NCBI RefSeq assembly: GCF_015209595.1
Contig: NZ_JADEYS010000001.1
Coordinates: 248,001-312,000, forward strand
DNA length: 64,000 nucleotides
Reading direction: 5' to 3'
DNA from: Pontibacterium sinense
GTDB lineage: Bacteria > Pseudomonadota > Gammaproteobacteria > Pseudomonadales > Balneatricaceae
The notes beneath the pieces are model-generated. The model saw nothing but the letters and a program-made list of their open reading frames with translations. It ran no database searches and had not been told where the DNA came from. The position numbers and the translations under genes are program-made. This document shows, in pieces, positions 4,651-28,049 of the stretch (the first letter of the stretch is position 1; each line of letters begins with the position of its first letter).

Positions 4651-6081
<1,431 letters not shown>

Positions 6082-14533: not shown

Positions 14534-14567
14534 TATTCAGTTTCGTTTCAGTAAGTGGGTGTATTAT
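14534..14567 (+). promoter_or_regulatory. PhoP-box-like direct repeat and -10 for small exported protein A
   Basis: TATTCA (14534-14539) and GTTTCA (14545-14550) are spaced with an 11-bp period. After exactly 11 nt comes TATTAT (14562-14567), a good -10. Two hexamers with a 5-bp spacer, placed just upstream of a -10 with no normal -35, is the arrangement bound by PhoP and related OmpR-family regulators. The same geometry recurs before the genes at 15055 and 25244. Confidence 0.65.
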
Positions 14568-14602: not shown

Positions 14603-14842
14603 ATGAAAACTTTAACTTCTGCAATCGCTCTGGGACTGGTTTTGGCATCAAGTGCAGTATCTGCGTCGAGCTACTACGAGTTATCAGCCAAGGAAGCAAA
14701 CTTTGCAGTAGGCACGAGCTTCTCCAGCACTGTAGACCTGTCAAGTAACAATTTTGCTCAGGCATTTGATCAGGCAGATTTAAGTGCGGTGGTTCAAGGC
14801 GGTACTTTTAATTATGACGCTGAATTGTATCGTGGTAATTAA
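14603..14842 (+). CDS. Small exported protein A (paralogue family, unknown function)
   Basis: The 79-residue product begins with a signal peptide (cleavage likely after SAVSA). The mature part is ~58 residues, starts SSYYELS and ends YDAELYRGN. The ATG at 14603 was chosen over an upstream in-frame start because it gives a signal peptide aligned residue by residue with the 79-residue paralogue at 15055. ACGAGG lies upstream. The mature peptide is acidic and has no cysteine. I do not recognise a named family. A third, more distant relative lies at 25244. Confidence 0.8.
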   Translation: MKTLTSAIALGLVLASSAVSASSYYELSAKEANFAVGTSFSSTVDLSSNNFAQAFDQADLSAVVQGGTFNYDAELYRGN

Positions 14843-14978: not shown

Positions 14979-15012
14979 GTTTCAGGTTCGTTTCATTCTA
15001 GTTTCATAGTAT
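14979..15012 (+). promoter_or_regulatory. Triple GTTTCA direct repeat and -10 for small exported protein B
   Basis: Three perfect GTTTCA hexamers lie at 14979-14984, 14990-14995 and 15001-15006, each 11 bp apart. Counting 11 nt from the end of the second repeat gives TAGTAT (15007-15012), the same spacing as at the other two promoters. The third repeat would then lie inside the spacer and could allow extra occupancy or repression. Confidence 0.7.
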
Positions 15013-15054: not shown

Positions 15055-15294
15055 ATGAAAGCACTAACAACTGCAATGGCTCTTGGTCTGGTATTGGTTT
15101 CAGGTTCTGCAATGGCTGCAAGCTACTATGAGCTATCTGATACTGAGCGCAATTATGCAAACGGAACGCAGCTACGTGAGGCTACCCACTATCTGGATCG
15201 TAGCGAATTCGTGGACTATGGCCAGAGTGCTAAAGACACCGGTAATACAGCTCAGTCACACATCTACAACACGGATATTTATCAGGGTAACTGA
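15055..15294 (+). CDS. Small exported protein B (paralogue family, unknown function)
   Basis: The product has 79 residues, the same length as the gene at 14603. A signal peptide probably ends at SAMA. The mature part starts ASYYELSDTE and ends IYNTDIYQGN. The signal region and the SYYELS start are close to protein A, while the middle has diverged. A good GAGAGGG ribosome site lies 7-8 bases before the ATG. The pair looks like an old tandem duplication. The function is unknown; a periplasmic or secreted peptide is likely from the signal sequence. Confidence 0.82.
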   Translation: MKALTTAMALGLVLVSGSAMAASYYELSDTERNYANGTQLREATHYLDRSEFVDYGQSAKDTGNTAQSHIYNTDIYQGN

Positions 15295-25172: not shown

Positions 25173-25206
25173 CTTTCAGCTTGGTTTCAGGTGGCCGCGC
25201 TAAATT
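25173..25206 (+). promoter_or_regulatory. PhoP-box-like direct repeat and -10 for small exported protein C
   Basis: CTTTCA (25173-25178) and GTTTCA (25184-25189) have an 11-bp period. Exactly 11 nt later comes TAAATT (25201-25206). The layout matches those at 14534 and 14979. It lies at the head of the gene cluster that also encodes a PhoP/PhoQ-like pair, which suggests autoregulation. Confidence 0.65.
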
Positions 25207-25243
25207 GAACTCCGAGACTACTTAACAATCTTGGAGGGTCACC

Positions 25244-25471
25244 ATGAAAACTTTCTCAAAATATATCGCCGCTGCTGCTATCGGTACTGCCTTGATGACT
25301 TCTCAGGCGTTTGCTGCAACAGGTTCTTTATATCCATTGGACAGCTGGGATCATCCGGTTGAAGGTCATTTGTCAGCAGAAGATACCAATATTAAAGATG
25401 AAGCTCTGCGTAGTGGTTACGGCAGTCCTGTCCGTGATCTTTGGGGCGAAGATGTATATTCCAATCAGTAA
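25244..25471 (+). CDS. Small exported protein C (distant relative of A and B)
   Basis: The 75-residue product has a signal peptide ending near AFA. The mature part begins ATGSLYPLDSW and ends LWGEDVYSNQ. Its size, signal, acidic mature part and the C-terminal acidic-hydrophobic-Tyr pattern recall the proteins at 14603 and 15055, though the middle does not align clearly. GGAGG lies six bases before the ATG. It is followed by a hairpin and then by the PepSY/two-component genes. The function is unknown. Confidence 0.8.
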   Translation: MKTFSKYIAAAAIGTALMTSQAFAATGSLYPLDSWDHPVEGHLSAEDTNIKDEALRSGYGSPVRDLWGEDVYSNQ

Positions 25472-25500
25472 GCGTTTCATTGATTGCTTACGGCCGCACC

Positions 25501-25526
25501 GGTAGGCTCTGTACTCAGAGTCTACC
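25501..25526. other. Strong hairpin between small protein C and PepSY gene
   Basis: GGTAGGCTCTG and CAGAGTCTACC pair over 11 bp (one G-U) with a four-base loop. No T-run follows. It could partly terminate or stabilise the upstream message, so that the small protein is made in excess over the downstream regulator genes; that is inference. Confidence 0.65.
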
Positions 25527-25583
25527 GCTGTATATATTGACTGAATGTGAAGGAACCACCTAGCCTAATTTGGGGGAGGTTTT

Positions 25584-25949
25584 ATGCGAAGCCATGTAAA
25601 GCGCTTGATGTTTGCTACCCTGATTATGCTTGGTGGCACTTTTACTTTATCTGCGCAGGGGGTAAGTAGCCTCCCTGCAGGATATGAAAGCCCGATGTCT
25701 GTTCGTGATAAGGCAATGGAACGGTTAGATGCTGATGAATGTCGTGTGCTGGCGGAATCAGGTGTCATCCTATCGATGATGGAATTGATGGATAAGGTCA
25801 AAATGCTGACCGATGGCCACATGTTAGATACATCATTGATCAAGCAGGGTGAAGAATACATCTATGAGATGGAAGTGGCGGGCAAAGACGGTGTGGTGCG
25901 CATGCTGTTGGTTGATGCCCGTACAGGAGACATGATTAAGGAGAAGTAA
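25584..25949 (+). CDS. Exported PepSY-domain protein
   Basis: This 121-residue product has a signal peptide ending near TLSA. The C-terminal ~45 residues (IKQGEEYIYEMEV...VRMLLVDARTGDMIKEK) fit the PepSY fold. A GGGGGAGG ribosome site precedes the ATG. It lies six bases upstream of the response regulator gene. Exported PepSY proteins often sit beside two-component systems and may modulate the sensor; a periplasmic modulator of the kinase at 26632 is plausible but inferred. Confidence 0.72.
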   Translation: MRSHVKRLMFATLIMLGGTFTLSAQGVSSLPAGYESPMSVRDKAMERLDADECRVLAESGVILSMMELMDKVKMLTDGHMLDTSLIKQGEEYIYEMEVAGKDGVVRMLLVDARTGDMIKEK

Positions 25950-25955
25950 CCCATC

Positions 25956-26621
25956 ATGAGGGTGCTACTGGTAGAGGATGATCCCCATCTGGGGCCTGAC
26001 CTGCGGGCTGAGCTGCTTCGCAGCGGTTATGCGGTAGACCTCGCTGACAATGGTGTTGATGGTGAGGCGATGGGGTATGAAGATATTTACGATCTGGTAG
26101 TGCTTGATCTGGGCTTGCCGCAACGGTCTGGCCTGGAAGTGCTGCGTAACTGGCGTAAACGTCGGAATAATGTACCGGTGCTCATTTTGACGGCGCGTTC
26201 TGCTTGGCAAGAGCGCGTAGACGGCTTCGAGGCGGGTGCTGACGATTATCTTGGTAAACCTTTCCACAATGAAGAACTCTTCGCACGTATGACCGCTTTA
26301 CTAAGGCGTGCTCATCAGCAGATCAGCAGCACGTTGGAAGTCGAAGGCTTAGTTCTGAATGAAAAAACCCAATCTGTAGTGCTTGATGGGAACGAAGAAG
26401 TGTCCCTGACCGGCACAGAATATCGTCTGTTGCGTTACTTTATGCATAACCCCTCTCGCGTATTATCGAAGCTCCAGCTTGTCGAGCATCTGTACGATGA
26501 TGGCGCTGAAAATGACAGCAATGTTATCGAGGCCTACATTAAGATGCTGCGTAAGAAGATTGGTAAAGAGCGTATCCAGACCAAACGGGGTCAGGGTTAC
26601 GTCTTCATTGCGACACTCTGA
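25956..26621 (+). CDS. OmpR-family response regulator, PhoP-like
   Basis: The 221-residue DNA-binding regulator has a receiver domain with the acidic pocket VEDD, phospho-acceptor D51 and conserved K101 (GKPF). A winged-helix output domain follows (TGTEYRLLRYF...; TKRGQGYVF). The segment LTARSAWQERVDGFEAGADD resembles PhoP closely, as does the partner kinase. PhoP-type regulators bind two hexamers 11 bp apart, and such repeats occur before three genes here, including this cluster's first gene. Mg2+ or peptide sensing is not shown by the sequence. Confidence 0.9.
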   Translation: MRVLLVEDDPHLGPDLRAELLRSGYAVDLADNGVDGEAMGYEDIYDLVVLDLGLPQRSGLEVLRNWRKRRNNVPVLILTARSAWQERVDGFEAGADDYLGKPFHNEELFARMTALLRRAHQQISSTLEVEGLVLNEKTQSVVLDGNEEVSLTGTEYRLLRYFMHNPSRVLSKLQLVEHLYDDGAENDSNVIEAYIKMLRKKIGKERIQTKRGQGYVFIATL

Positions 26622-26631
26622 GCGTCTGCCG

Positions 26632-27987
26632 ATGCTGAAATCTATTCAGACCCGCCTGAACAGTGGTTTTATTTTGGTCTCGATGGTGGCCATTGTGGTG
26701 CTTTGGCTGGCTAACAGTTGGTACCTACGTCAGACCGCCTACGAATTTGTTAGTGCACGCCTGTCCAGTGATGCATATACGATTTTGCGTGCCGTTGAAA
26801 TGGATGAAGCGGGGGGCTGGCGAGTCAACAGCGATATGATCGATCCTGTCTATCTTCAGCCGATGTCCGGCCATTATTTTCAAGTACGTGTAGAAGATAA
26901 GTGGCTTTATTCCCGCTCTCTCTGGGATGAGATGATTCCCACCAACGGGGGCGAAGATATCGGTCAGGAATACGTGCGTTTAGTGCATAAGGCTAAACAT
27001 CCCTGGCTGGTATTGGATCAGACCTTTATGAAAGAGGGGTTGAAGGTTCAGCTGGTGTTAGCTGAAGATGTGGATCGGATCGACAAATCGCTGCGTAAGC
27101 AGGGGTGGGCGGTTGCAGCGTCCGGACTGGTGTTCCTGATCATATTGCTTGTGGTGCAGGTAGTGATTATTCGTCGGGGGCTGCGTTCTCTGGTCAGTGT
27201 GCGGGGTGATATCTCTCGTCTTAAGCAGGGAGAGGTGCGTCAATTGTCACCAGTGAATACGACTGAAGTGGATCCTCTTGTTACAGAAATCAATTATCTG
27301 GTTCAGGCAATGGAGCTGCGGCTACAGCGCTCACGTAATGCCGTCGGAAATCTGGCTCATGCCGCTAAAACACCGTTAACAGTATTGGATCGGCAGATTG
27401 AGGCACTTAAGGTGCGAGACCCTGATCATGCGGCGGATATGCAGGAGCAGTCGGTACGCCTGCGGGATTTGATGCATCGAGAGCTCACCCGTGCACGTAT
27501 TGCGGGAGCCGCGTTGCCCGGTCAGCGGATCTATATGCTGCCCGAGATGGATAAACTGCTACGGACACTAAAAGCGATATACCGCGATAAGGCGCTTAAT
27601 ATTCAGCAGAATGTCAGTGACAAGATTTACTTCCCCGGCGAACGTGATGATCTGATGGAGTTGTTGGGCAATTTGATGGATAACGCCTGTAAATGGGCGC
27701 ATTCAGCTGTATCGATTACCGCCGAGACGGATGATGATTGTCTTACAATGATCATCGAAGATGATGGCCCGGGAATCGCAGAAGATCAGATTGAGCGCCT
27801 GCTTACACGGGGTGAACGGTTGGATGAGTCGACCGATGGGCATGGGCTGGGAATGAGTATCGTGACCGATATTGTTCGGCAGTATGCGGGTAAACTGTCT
27901 TTGGGGCGTTCTGAGCGTCTGAATGGACTTAGGGTGATGATCATGTTGCCCCTTCACACCAAGGCCGGGATTCTGGCTTCCGAGTAA
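26632..27987 (+). CDS. Sensor histidine kinase, PhoQ-like
   Basis: The product has 451 residues. TM1 lies near residues 12-28, a periplasmic region near 29-162 and TM2 near 163-183. A HAMP-like linker follows, then the dimerisation domain with H243 in NLAHAAKTPLTVL, similar to PhoQ's H-x-x-K-TPL. The ATPase domain has N-box NLMDNACKW, EDDGPGI and GHGLGMSIV. The ATG at 26632 is 10 bases after the regulator stop. An open frame further upstream overlaps the regulator and is rejected. The ligand is unknown. Confidence 0.9.
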   Translation: MLKSIQTRLNSGFILVSMVAIVVLWLANSWYLRQTAYEFVSARLSSDAYTILRAVEMDEAGGWRVNSDMIDPVYLQPMSGHYFQVRVEDKWLYSRSLWDEMIPTNGGEDIGQEYVRLVHKAKHPWLVLDQTFMKEGLKVQLVLAEDVDRIDKSLRKQGWAVAASGLVFLIILLVVQVVIIRRGLRSLVSVRGDISRLKQGEVRQLSPVNTTEVDPLVTEINYLVQAMELRLQRSRNAVGNLAHAAKTPLTVLDRQIEALKVRDPDHAADMQEQSVRLRDLMHRELTRARIAGAALPGQRIYMLPEMDKLLRTLKAIYRDKALNIQQNVSDKIYFPGERDDLMELLGNLMDNACKWAHSAVSITAETDDDCLTMIIEDDGPGIAEDQIERLLTRGERLDESTDGHGLGMSIVTDIVRQYAGKLSLGRSERLNGLRVMIMLPLHTKAGILASE

Positions 27988-28015: not shown

Positions 28016-28049
28016 AGCCCGCTTCCTTGCTGAAAGCGGGCTTTTTTTA
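28016..28049 (+). terminator. Intrinsic terminator after the two-component operon
   Basis: AGCCCGCTT and AAGCGGGCT form a 9-bp stem with a nine-base loop, followed by a T-run. Confidence 0.9.

Follow-up and report, generated by a model that had tools for sequence, protein, structure and literature searches.

A DbfQRS-like operon of Pontibacterium sinense with a composite promoter and a predicted regulon of copper peptides, redox repair and tiny exported proteins

The window analyzed here, a 64-kb stretch of the 4.64-Mb genome of Pontibacterium sinense (G000), carries between pgpA and ribA an operon in which the genes of a small exported protein (C), a PepSY protein, a response regulator and a sensor histidine kinase follow one another on one strand with short gaps. 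The PepSY-regulator-kinase core is a DbfQRS-like module and belongs to a known kind; what is new is a defined promoter and a predicted regulon with amplified families of tiny exported proteins. All evidence is computational. The operon probably works as an envelope switch that activates itself and counters damage by copper or oxidants in the periplasm; lineage-specific tiny proteins would have been added to it. The relevant features of the window are as follows (aa, amino acids; nt, nucleotides; ORF, open reading frame).

25174-25206, + strand: composite promoter of the operon, TTTCAG-N5-TTTCAG (25174-25190) with TAAATT (25201-25206) 10 nt downstream
25244-25471, + strand: C, a 75-aa ORF with a signal-peptide-like start ending AFA; mature part about 51 aa, net charge -7, no Cys
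25501-25526, + strand: RNA hairpin with an 11-bp stem between C and the PepSY gene, from folding prediction
25584-25949, + strand: DbfQ-like exported PepSY protein, 121 aa, from profile matches and predicted fold
25956-26621, + strand: OmpR/PhoB-type response regulator (DbfR-like)
26632-27987, + strand: sensor histidine kinase (DbfS-like), with about 130 N-terminal residues between two hydrophobic stretches
28016-28042, strand not assigned: terminator-like inverted repeat after the operon
14535-14567, + strand: composite promoter before A, no mismatch to the search pattern
14603-14842, + strand: A, a 79-aa exported protein, paralogue of B
14980-15012, + strand: composite promoter before B, one mismatch
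15055-15294, + strand: B, a 79-aa exported protein

The operon and its composite promoter

DbfQRS of Vibrio cholerae was published in December 2025 (PMC12714742), and that account describes DbfQRS-like modules as widespread, including tandem pairs of PepSY genes. The core of the present finding is of this known kind because its gene set is the one described there: gene order, predicted fold and profile match place a small exported PepSY gene within four genes of a regulator and a kinase. This likeness was judged from the published description. The first-pass annotation of this DNA, which had known of no described system with such a set, is superseded for the core by the same account.

The PepSY protein scores below the Pfam PepSY cut-off (14.8 bits against 24). 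Its predicted fold is confident, with a predicted local distance difference test (pLDDT) value of at least 90 at 63 of 121 residues. In the fold comparison, the best solved matches were 4exr and, twice, YpmB, with YpeB in sixth place, all of which we take to be PepSY proteins; the best E value was 0.043 and none passed 0.001. A profile search against PDB sequences matched a PepSY propeptide protein at E 1.7e-4. Matches to the PepSY protein occur in 62 of the 116 genomes of the family (E <= 1e-3), and the relatives reached through its alignment include Pontibacterium granulatum, Marinobacterium, Amphritea and Neptunomonas. Two PepSY genes stand in tandem before the regulator in G016 (L048:4555-5279) and G004 (L055:4647-5397), as has been reported in Pseudomonas aeruginosa.

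The PhoP/PhoQ-like character that the first-pass annotation gave to the regulator and kinase holds only at the level of the family. The regulator reached 167 bits with the NCBIfam PhoP model (cut-off 336) and the kinase 174 bits with the PhoQ model (cut-off 497), the latter over residues 166-439 only, so that the presumed sensor is unmatched. Among PDB entries, the kinase is matched best by the catalytic domain of PhoQ, over residues 303-438. The N-terminal region of about 130 residues is taken as a periplasmic sensor. In it, PMSGHY and SRSLWD are kept in all 18 aligned orthologues. Met78 and His81 are likewise invariant in the 18; Met78 is missing in both outgroups and His81 in one. The region of Met78 is a candidate metal site, and no more than a candidate.

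Every part of the closely spaced run proposed in the first-pass annotation, from exported C and the hairpin to the kinase, was located on the same strand. All five genomes of the genus keep the order C-PepSY-regulator. The kinase follows in four of them; in the fifth (G107) the contig stops after the regulator. More widely, the module, or as much of it as the contig contains, comes after pgpA in 18 of 20 genome stretches examined. Relatives of C occur in 6 of the 116 family genomes, the window's own included, and two of these (G105 and G108) have two copies each; in G108, a stem and T run follow the first copy and the second has a promoter of its own. The single terminator proposed for the end of the operon is matched by the stem at 28016-28042, but the scan for such stems gave 2 sites where shuffles led one to expect 3.0, and is by itself no evidence for it. 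The interval between C and the PepSY gene folds with z = -3.0, and the five intervals of the genus gave -3.0, -2.8, -2.6, -0.5 and -2.0; a hairpin is thus predicted in the other four genomes also, in one of them no better than in shuffles, and its sequence is conserved only in part. A role as partial terminator or mRNA stabilizer is possible.

Other leader arrangements were observed. In G035 (L045:5695-6639), a 314-aa exported protein with its own promoter copy lies between C and the PepSY gene and has seven repeats ending D-x-WG-x-S-V-[YF]-[DE]-YQ, similar to the end of C; the one comparison made gave E 0.005, which is no more than suggestive. In G074 (L057:4285-4584) and G070 (L058:4448-4765), the place of the operon leader, again behind a site, is occupied by another kind of exported protein, 99-105 aa long and containing Cys, which was not flagged as C-like in the gene-order comparison.

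The operon promoter consists of a TTTCAG direct repeat with an 11-bp period and a -10-like TAAATT. Upstream of the operon in 19 genomes a single element was found, WTTCAG-N5-TTTCAG-N10-TANNNT. At 21 places in these genomes, among them the second C promoter of G108 and the one before the inserted G035 gene, TTCAG in the first half, TTCA in the second half and TA...T are invariant; each place is the best pattern match of its upstream region with at most one mismatch, and some of the uniformity arises by this choice. The search pattern, TTCAG-N-TT-NN-TTTCAG-N10-TANNNT, was trained on the operon promoters, so that the remaining sites serve as tests. With up to two mismatches, the five genomes of the genus contain 18, 13, 13, 15 and 15 sites, against 2, 0, 1, 1 and 0 for the reversed pattern; with up to one mismatch, the 116 family genomes contain 326 matches against 3. 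Three composite sites lie within the window, before A, B and C. A common control of the operon and remote small exported proteins, as first proposed, is supported by comparative genomics through this promoter, which both possess and which follows the module through the family.

The first-pass annotation had also described the promoter as PhoP-box-like. The PhoP box is TGTTTA-N5-TGTTTA, and it is ruled out at this position, where the element is the TTTCAG repeat with its -10. A PhoP-type search (GGTTTA-N5-GTTTA, up to three mismatches) gave 169 matches in the window against a shuffle mean of 129 and was too loose; none of 100 shuffles reached 169, and this search pointed to the TTTCA repeats. 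The bare repeat TTTCAG-N5-TTTCAG, with up to one mismatch, matched the window's genome 77 times against 19 for the reversed form. Because many of these matches lie inside long reading frames, the composite pattern was adopted.

The distribution of sites follows that of the module. A kinase match (E <= 1e-60) was found in 47 of the 116 family genomes, at 52% identity or more in 39 and at 34-37% in eight; the 39 were counted as carrying an orthologue (best match, at least 52% identity), which leaves 77 without one. With up to one mismatch, at least two sites are present in 38 of the 39 (median 9, range 0-15). Among the 77, at least one site is present in 22 and at least two in 4 (median 0, maximum 4). 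The difference is significant (U test, p = 1.9e-19, uncorrected for relatedness). One genome with four sites and no kinase orthologue, G036, is 71% complete, and its PepSY match lies 28 bases from a contig end. In the Neptunomonas genus, G075 has only 99 bases between pgpA and ribA, with no module there and zero sites, and gave neither a PepSY match (E <= 1e-3) nor a kinase match (E <= 1e-60); all seven of its sister genomes carry the module, with between 5 and 15 sites in each. The pgpA region was searched in 13 genomes without a kinase orthologue and inspected in 10, G075 among them, and parts of the module or sites (up to two mismatches) were found in none of the 10.

The predicted regulon and the tiny exported proteins

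The window's genome has nine sites with at most one mismatch. Three of them are those of A, B and the C operon; the others stand before BufA2-BufB, HvfA-HvfB and the genes of an MsrP-like protein, a DUF302 protein, an exported protein of 125 aa and a further protein of 106 aa. As read from the translations, eight of the nine lie ahead of a gene with an exported-looking product; the 106-aa protein has no signal-like start, and HvfA begins about 410 nt past its site. Two further sites, with two mismatches, stand ahead of 53- and 54-aa exported proteins. NCBIfam models were matched over their cut-offs by BufA2 (122.8 bits; cut-off 60), the HvfA domain (137.4; 19.5), HvfB (442.8; 360) and BufB (385.4; 310), and the DUF302 target is backed by a family model. 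The MsrP, MsrAB, DsbC, FrnE, YHS, P460, BufA1 and BufC/HvfC identities are putative and come from reading of translations.

Similar targets appear in relatives. A BufA2-type gene stands behind a site in four of the five genus genomes (G000, G105, G107 and G108), and the gene after a BufA1-like gene of G072 has a BufB match over cut-off. In two genomes of the Amphritea genus, where 19 of 23 sites were inspected, targets include BufA1-, BufA2- and HvfA-like precursors, a BufB-like maturase and MsrAB-, DsbC-, YHS- and P460-like proteins; several sites have no clear target. The theme of the regulon is periplasmic copper and oxidative damage, although a regulon of this kind need not include every copper peptide. 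A published account links bufferins to copper stress (PMC12452194). None of the three MNIO maturase matches of the window's genome shares a contig with A, B and C. One of its bufferin-type operons, the second (G000:C12:20754), has no promoter copy and is followed by a gene like those of extracytoplasmic function (ECF) sigma factors; because of this neighbor, the bufferins of this genome may be under two regulators.

The tiny proteins form several families between which no relation is detectable. The first-pass annotation had counted two remote paralogues of C, here taken as A and B; these are paralogues of each other (E 5e-6), and their homology to C is undetectable in sequence comparisons. 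A common motif E-[AG]-[HN]-[LM] across C, the A/B type and the Neptunomonas type was also rejected as a sign of homology, with hhalign probabilities of 0.7% and 3.3%. There was no Pfam match over cut-off for A, B or C and no NCBIfam match for B or C. The mature part of B has no confident predicted fold (pLDDT 56, predicted template modelling score 0.15), which fits disorder without proving it.

For a wider survey, the DNA behind sites with up to two mismatches was scanned for ORFs of 40-130 aa that have a ribosome-site-like sequence and begin like a signal peptide, and 73 were kept from 80 stretches; this filter favors exported proteins, takes in PepSY and larger proteins, and is blind to copies without a site. 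Sequence rules grouped 56 of the 73 (C 7, A/B-type 21, Neptunomonas-type 23, others of up to 60 aa 5), and 17 rows were left out. All 56 grouped proteins are free of Cys and have an acidic mature part with a net charge of -2 to -10, the cleavage sites being set by a simple rule. Family and copy number vary between genera. Many genes have a site of their own and lie mostly in arrays: G074 has ten such copies, G072 eight, G106 and G071 four each, and G037 and G107 three each.

In G074 (L307-L309), the ten genes encode 97- and 98-aa exported proteins, each with its own promoter copy, in three stretches; they are of two nearly uniform types in alternating pairs, which looks like recent amplification. 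In G106 (L161), five promoter copies stand in a row (5921, 5582, 5090, 4590 and 4166), four of them heading A/B-type genes and the one at 5921 without an assigned small ORF.

A more far-reaching view would make these tiny, acidic, Cys-free exported proteins a new and fast-evolving class of effectors of DbfQRS-type systems, with families of no detectable kinship repeatedly recruited to one promoter, where they might serve as sacrificial periplasmic buffers (for copper, oxidants or cationic peptides) beside the metallophores made as ribosomally synthesized and post-translationally modified peptides (RiPPs), or compete with the PepSY protein at the kinase. This view is speculative and is put forward with considerable doubt.

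A proposed mechanism and its competitors

The proposed mechanism builds on what the sequence itself shows: the order of the genes, the fold predicted for the PepSY protein, the promoter and its occurrence together with the module, and some target identities. What binds what, the nature of the signal, the sign of the control and what the tiny proteins do we infer. In V. cholerae, DbfQ binds the DbfS sensor with a dissociation constant of 30 nM and favors phosphatase activity (PMC12714742). By analogy, the PepSY protein of the window probably binds the periplasmic domain of the kinase and keeps it acting as a phosphatase. The kinase would be freed by damage in the periplasm, for which copper or an oxidant is the likeliest cause, or else by damage of the outer membrane, and the phosphorylated regulator would then bind TTTCAG-N5-TTTCAG at the -35 position, 10 nt before TANNNT. 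The fixed spacing suggests that the bound promoter would be activated, and the conserved activator-type promoter at the operon speaks for positive autoregulation. Predicted targets are the operon itself, the RiPP operons of HvfA and the bufferins, and the genes of Msr- and Dsb-like enzymes. The tiny acidic exported proteins, represented in the window by A, B and C, are also counted among the targets and would be effectors, perhaps sacrificial periplasmic buffers. Since the operon is one of its own targets, induction should raise the amounts of C and the PepSY protein along with that of the kinase on which the PepSY protein acts as a brake. Feedback by the PepSY protein would have a precedent in V. 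cholerae.

Several observations weigh against this mechanism or narrow it. Bare TTTCAG pairs in G105 have the 5-base spacer in 6 of 67 cases (spacers 0-16), and spacers of 3, 6, 13 and 15 are commoner; specificity rests on the composite pattern because the bare repeat is not enriched at 5-base spacing. G029 carries the module, yet has zero sites with up to one mismatch. Among MNIO (HvfB/BufB) operons, a site is present in 5 of 10 in six genomes; the siteless ones include one in the window's genome, and the only MNIO operon of G075, of bufferin type, also has no site. The BufA1-like protein of G072 and the FrnE-like protein of G105 have no NCBIfam match, and the window's genome contains a third, weak relative of A and B (E 0.008) around which the stretch examined shows no site. 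Eleven of the 19 genomes compared have no leader gene between promoter and PepSY gene, so that C is an add-on. Finally, copper as the signal is a guess from the targets: the V. cholerae system responds to outer-membrane damage, being activated by lipopolysaccharide (LPS) defects, polymyxin B and thymol, and added Fe is inactive (PMC12714742).

This last point also supports the closest competitor, in which the operon is a plain DbfQRS sensor of outer-membrane damage, the copper peptides and Msr/Dsb proteins belong to general envelope repair, and copper is not the signal. The acidity of all 56 tiny proteins would also suit the trapping of cationic peptides. The targets that can be named, however, are mostly concerned with metal or redox chemistry (HvfA/HvfB and BufA2/BufB by family models; MsrP-, MsrAB-, DsbC- and FrnE-like proteins by reading), and this explanation, although a serious one, is given somewhat less than an even chance.

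In a second alternative, suggested in the first-pass annotation, C, A and B are ligands of the kinase that compete with the PepSY protein for the sensor domain and tune the switch. Their predicted co-expression and export would permit it, C is the first operon gene in five of five genus genomes, and the PepSY protein at this position binds its kinase in V. cholerae (PMC12714742). C has, however, no detectable relation to A and B, the leader gene is missing in the 11 genomes mentioned, and the tiny families vary by genus while the sensor motifs stay constant in 18 of 18 kinases. A ligand role thus appears unlikely.

Somewhat less likely still is that another OmpR-family regulator binds the element, the operon being just another gene set under its control. 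A candidate is CreB, whose site TTCAC-N6-TTCAC has the 11-bp period and a close half-site. Site abundance, however, tracks the module in the 116 genomes, and G075, one of eight in its genus, lacks both. The stretch of the regulator that we take to be the recognition helix is identical save for one I/V exchange in all 17 aligned regulators from site-bearing genomes, and differs in both outgroups, where the site counts are 0 and 1. The possibility that the tiny ORFs are non-genes or functionless leader peptides with coincidental sites, to which the lack of family matches over cut-off for A (Pfam only), B and C and of a confident fold for B might point, is highly improbable, as families with signal-like starts are kept across genera, tandem copies each stand behind a site, and the reversed pattern is nearly absent (3 against 326). 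The self-activating switch against copper or oxidant damage is retained as the preferred explanation.

Relation to known systems

With PhoP/PhoQ, the operon has in common an OmpR-family regulator and a kinase whose best PDB match is the PhoQ catalytic domain. It differs in having no PhoP box, in a PhoQ match that begins past the presumed sensor, and in scores far under the cut-offs.

The BqsPQRS/CarRS system of P. aeruginosa has PepSY genes upstream of the regulator and kinase (PMC12714742). Its operator, TTAAG-N6-TTAAG, is described as activating, with the downstream pentamer overlapping the -35 of the bqs promoter (PMC4682146, PMC12666569); compared with the TTCAG-N6-TTCAG of the present element, the layout is equal and one base is changed in each half-site. 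Within the literature covered, BqsR is the only DbfQRS relative for which an operator is given, and the DbfQRS passages available gave none for DbfR. The ExxE motif of BqsS is linked to Fe2+ binding; after the first membrane helix of the present kinases it occurs, as EMDE, in the window's kinase and G028 only (2 of 18) and is not conserved.

Two promoter targets of the window's genome belong by NCBIfam to the bufferin/HvfA RiPP metallophores, precursors that have Cys and match a family model. A, B, C and the Neptunomonas-type tiny proteins differ in having no Cys, and A, B and C are not precursors of this type. Among the entries listed by searches of the literature there was neither a DbfQRS-type regulator of copper-binding RiPPs (in one search the term "bufferin" also matched "buffering") nor a description of the present regulon. 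The current work would tie a DbfQRS-type switch to copper-binding RiPPs, and places tiny exported proteins, mostly without a family model and seemingly amplified, under the same switch. Comparative genomics has here given a sharp promoter, a predicted regulon and, with copper or an oxidant in the periplasm, candidate inputs that are open to experiment in cultured marine bacteria.

The closest known relative is DbfQRS itself. Both it (PMC12714742) and the present system have a small exported PepSY protein encoded directly upstream of regulator and kinase, and the positive autoregulation of the dbfQRS operon has its counterpart in the apparent self-control of the window's operon. They differ in what is controlled: DbfR mainly shifts biofilm, metabolism and motility genes in V. 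cholerae, whereas the regulon predicted here combines copper peptides and redox repair with the tiny exported proteins. The defined TTTCAG promoter, the leader gene C and the seat between pgpA and ribA are found on the side of the window only.

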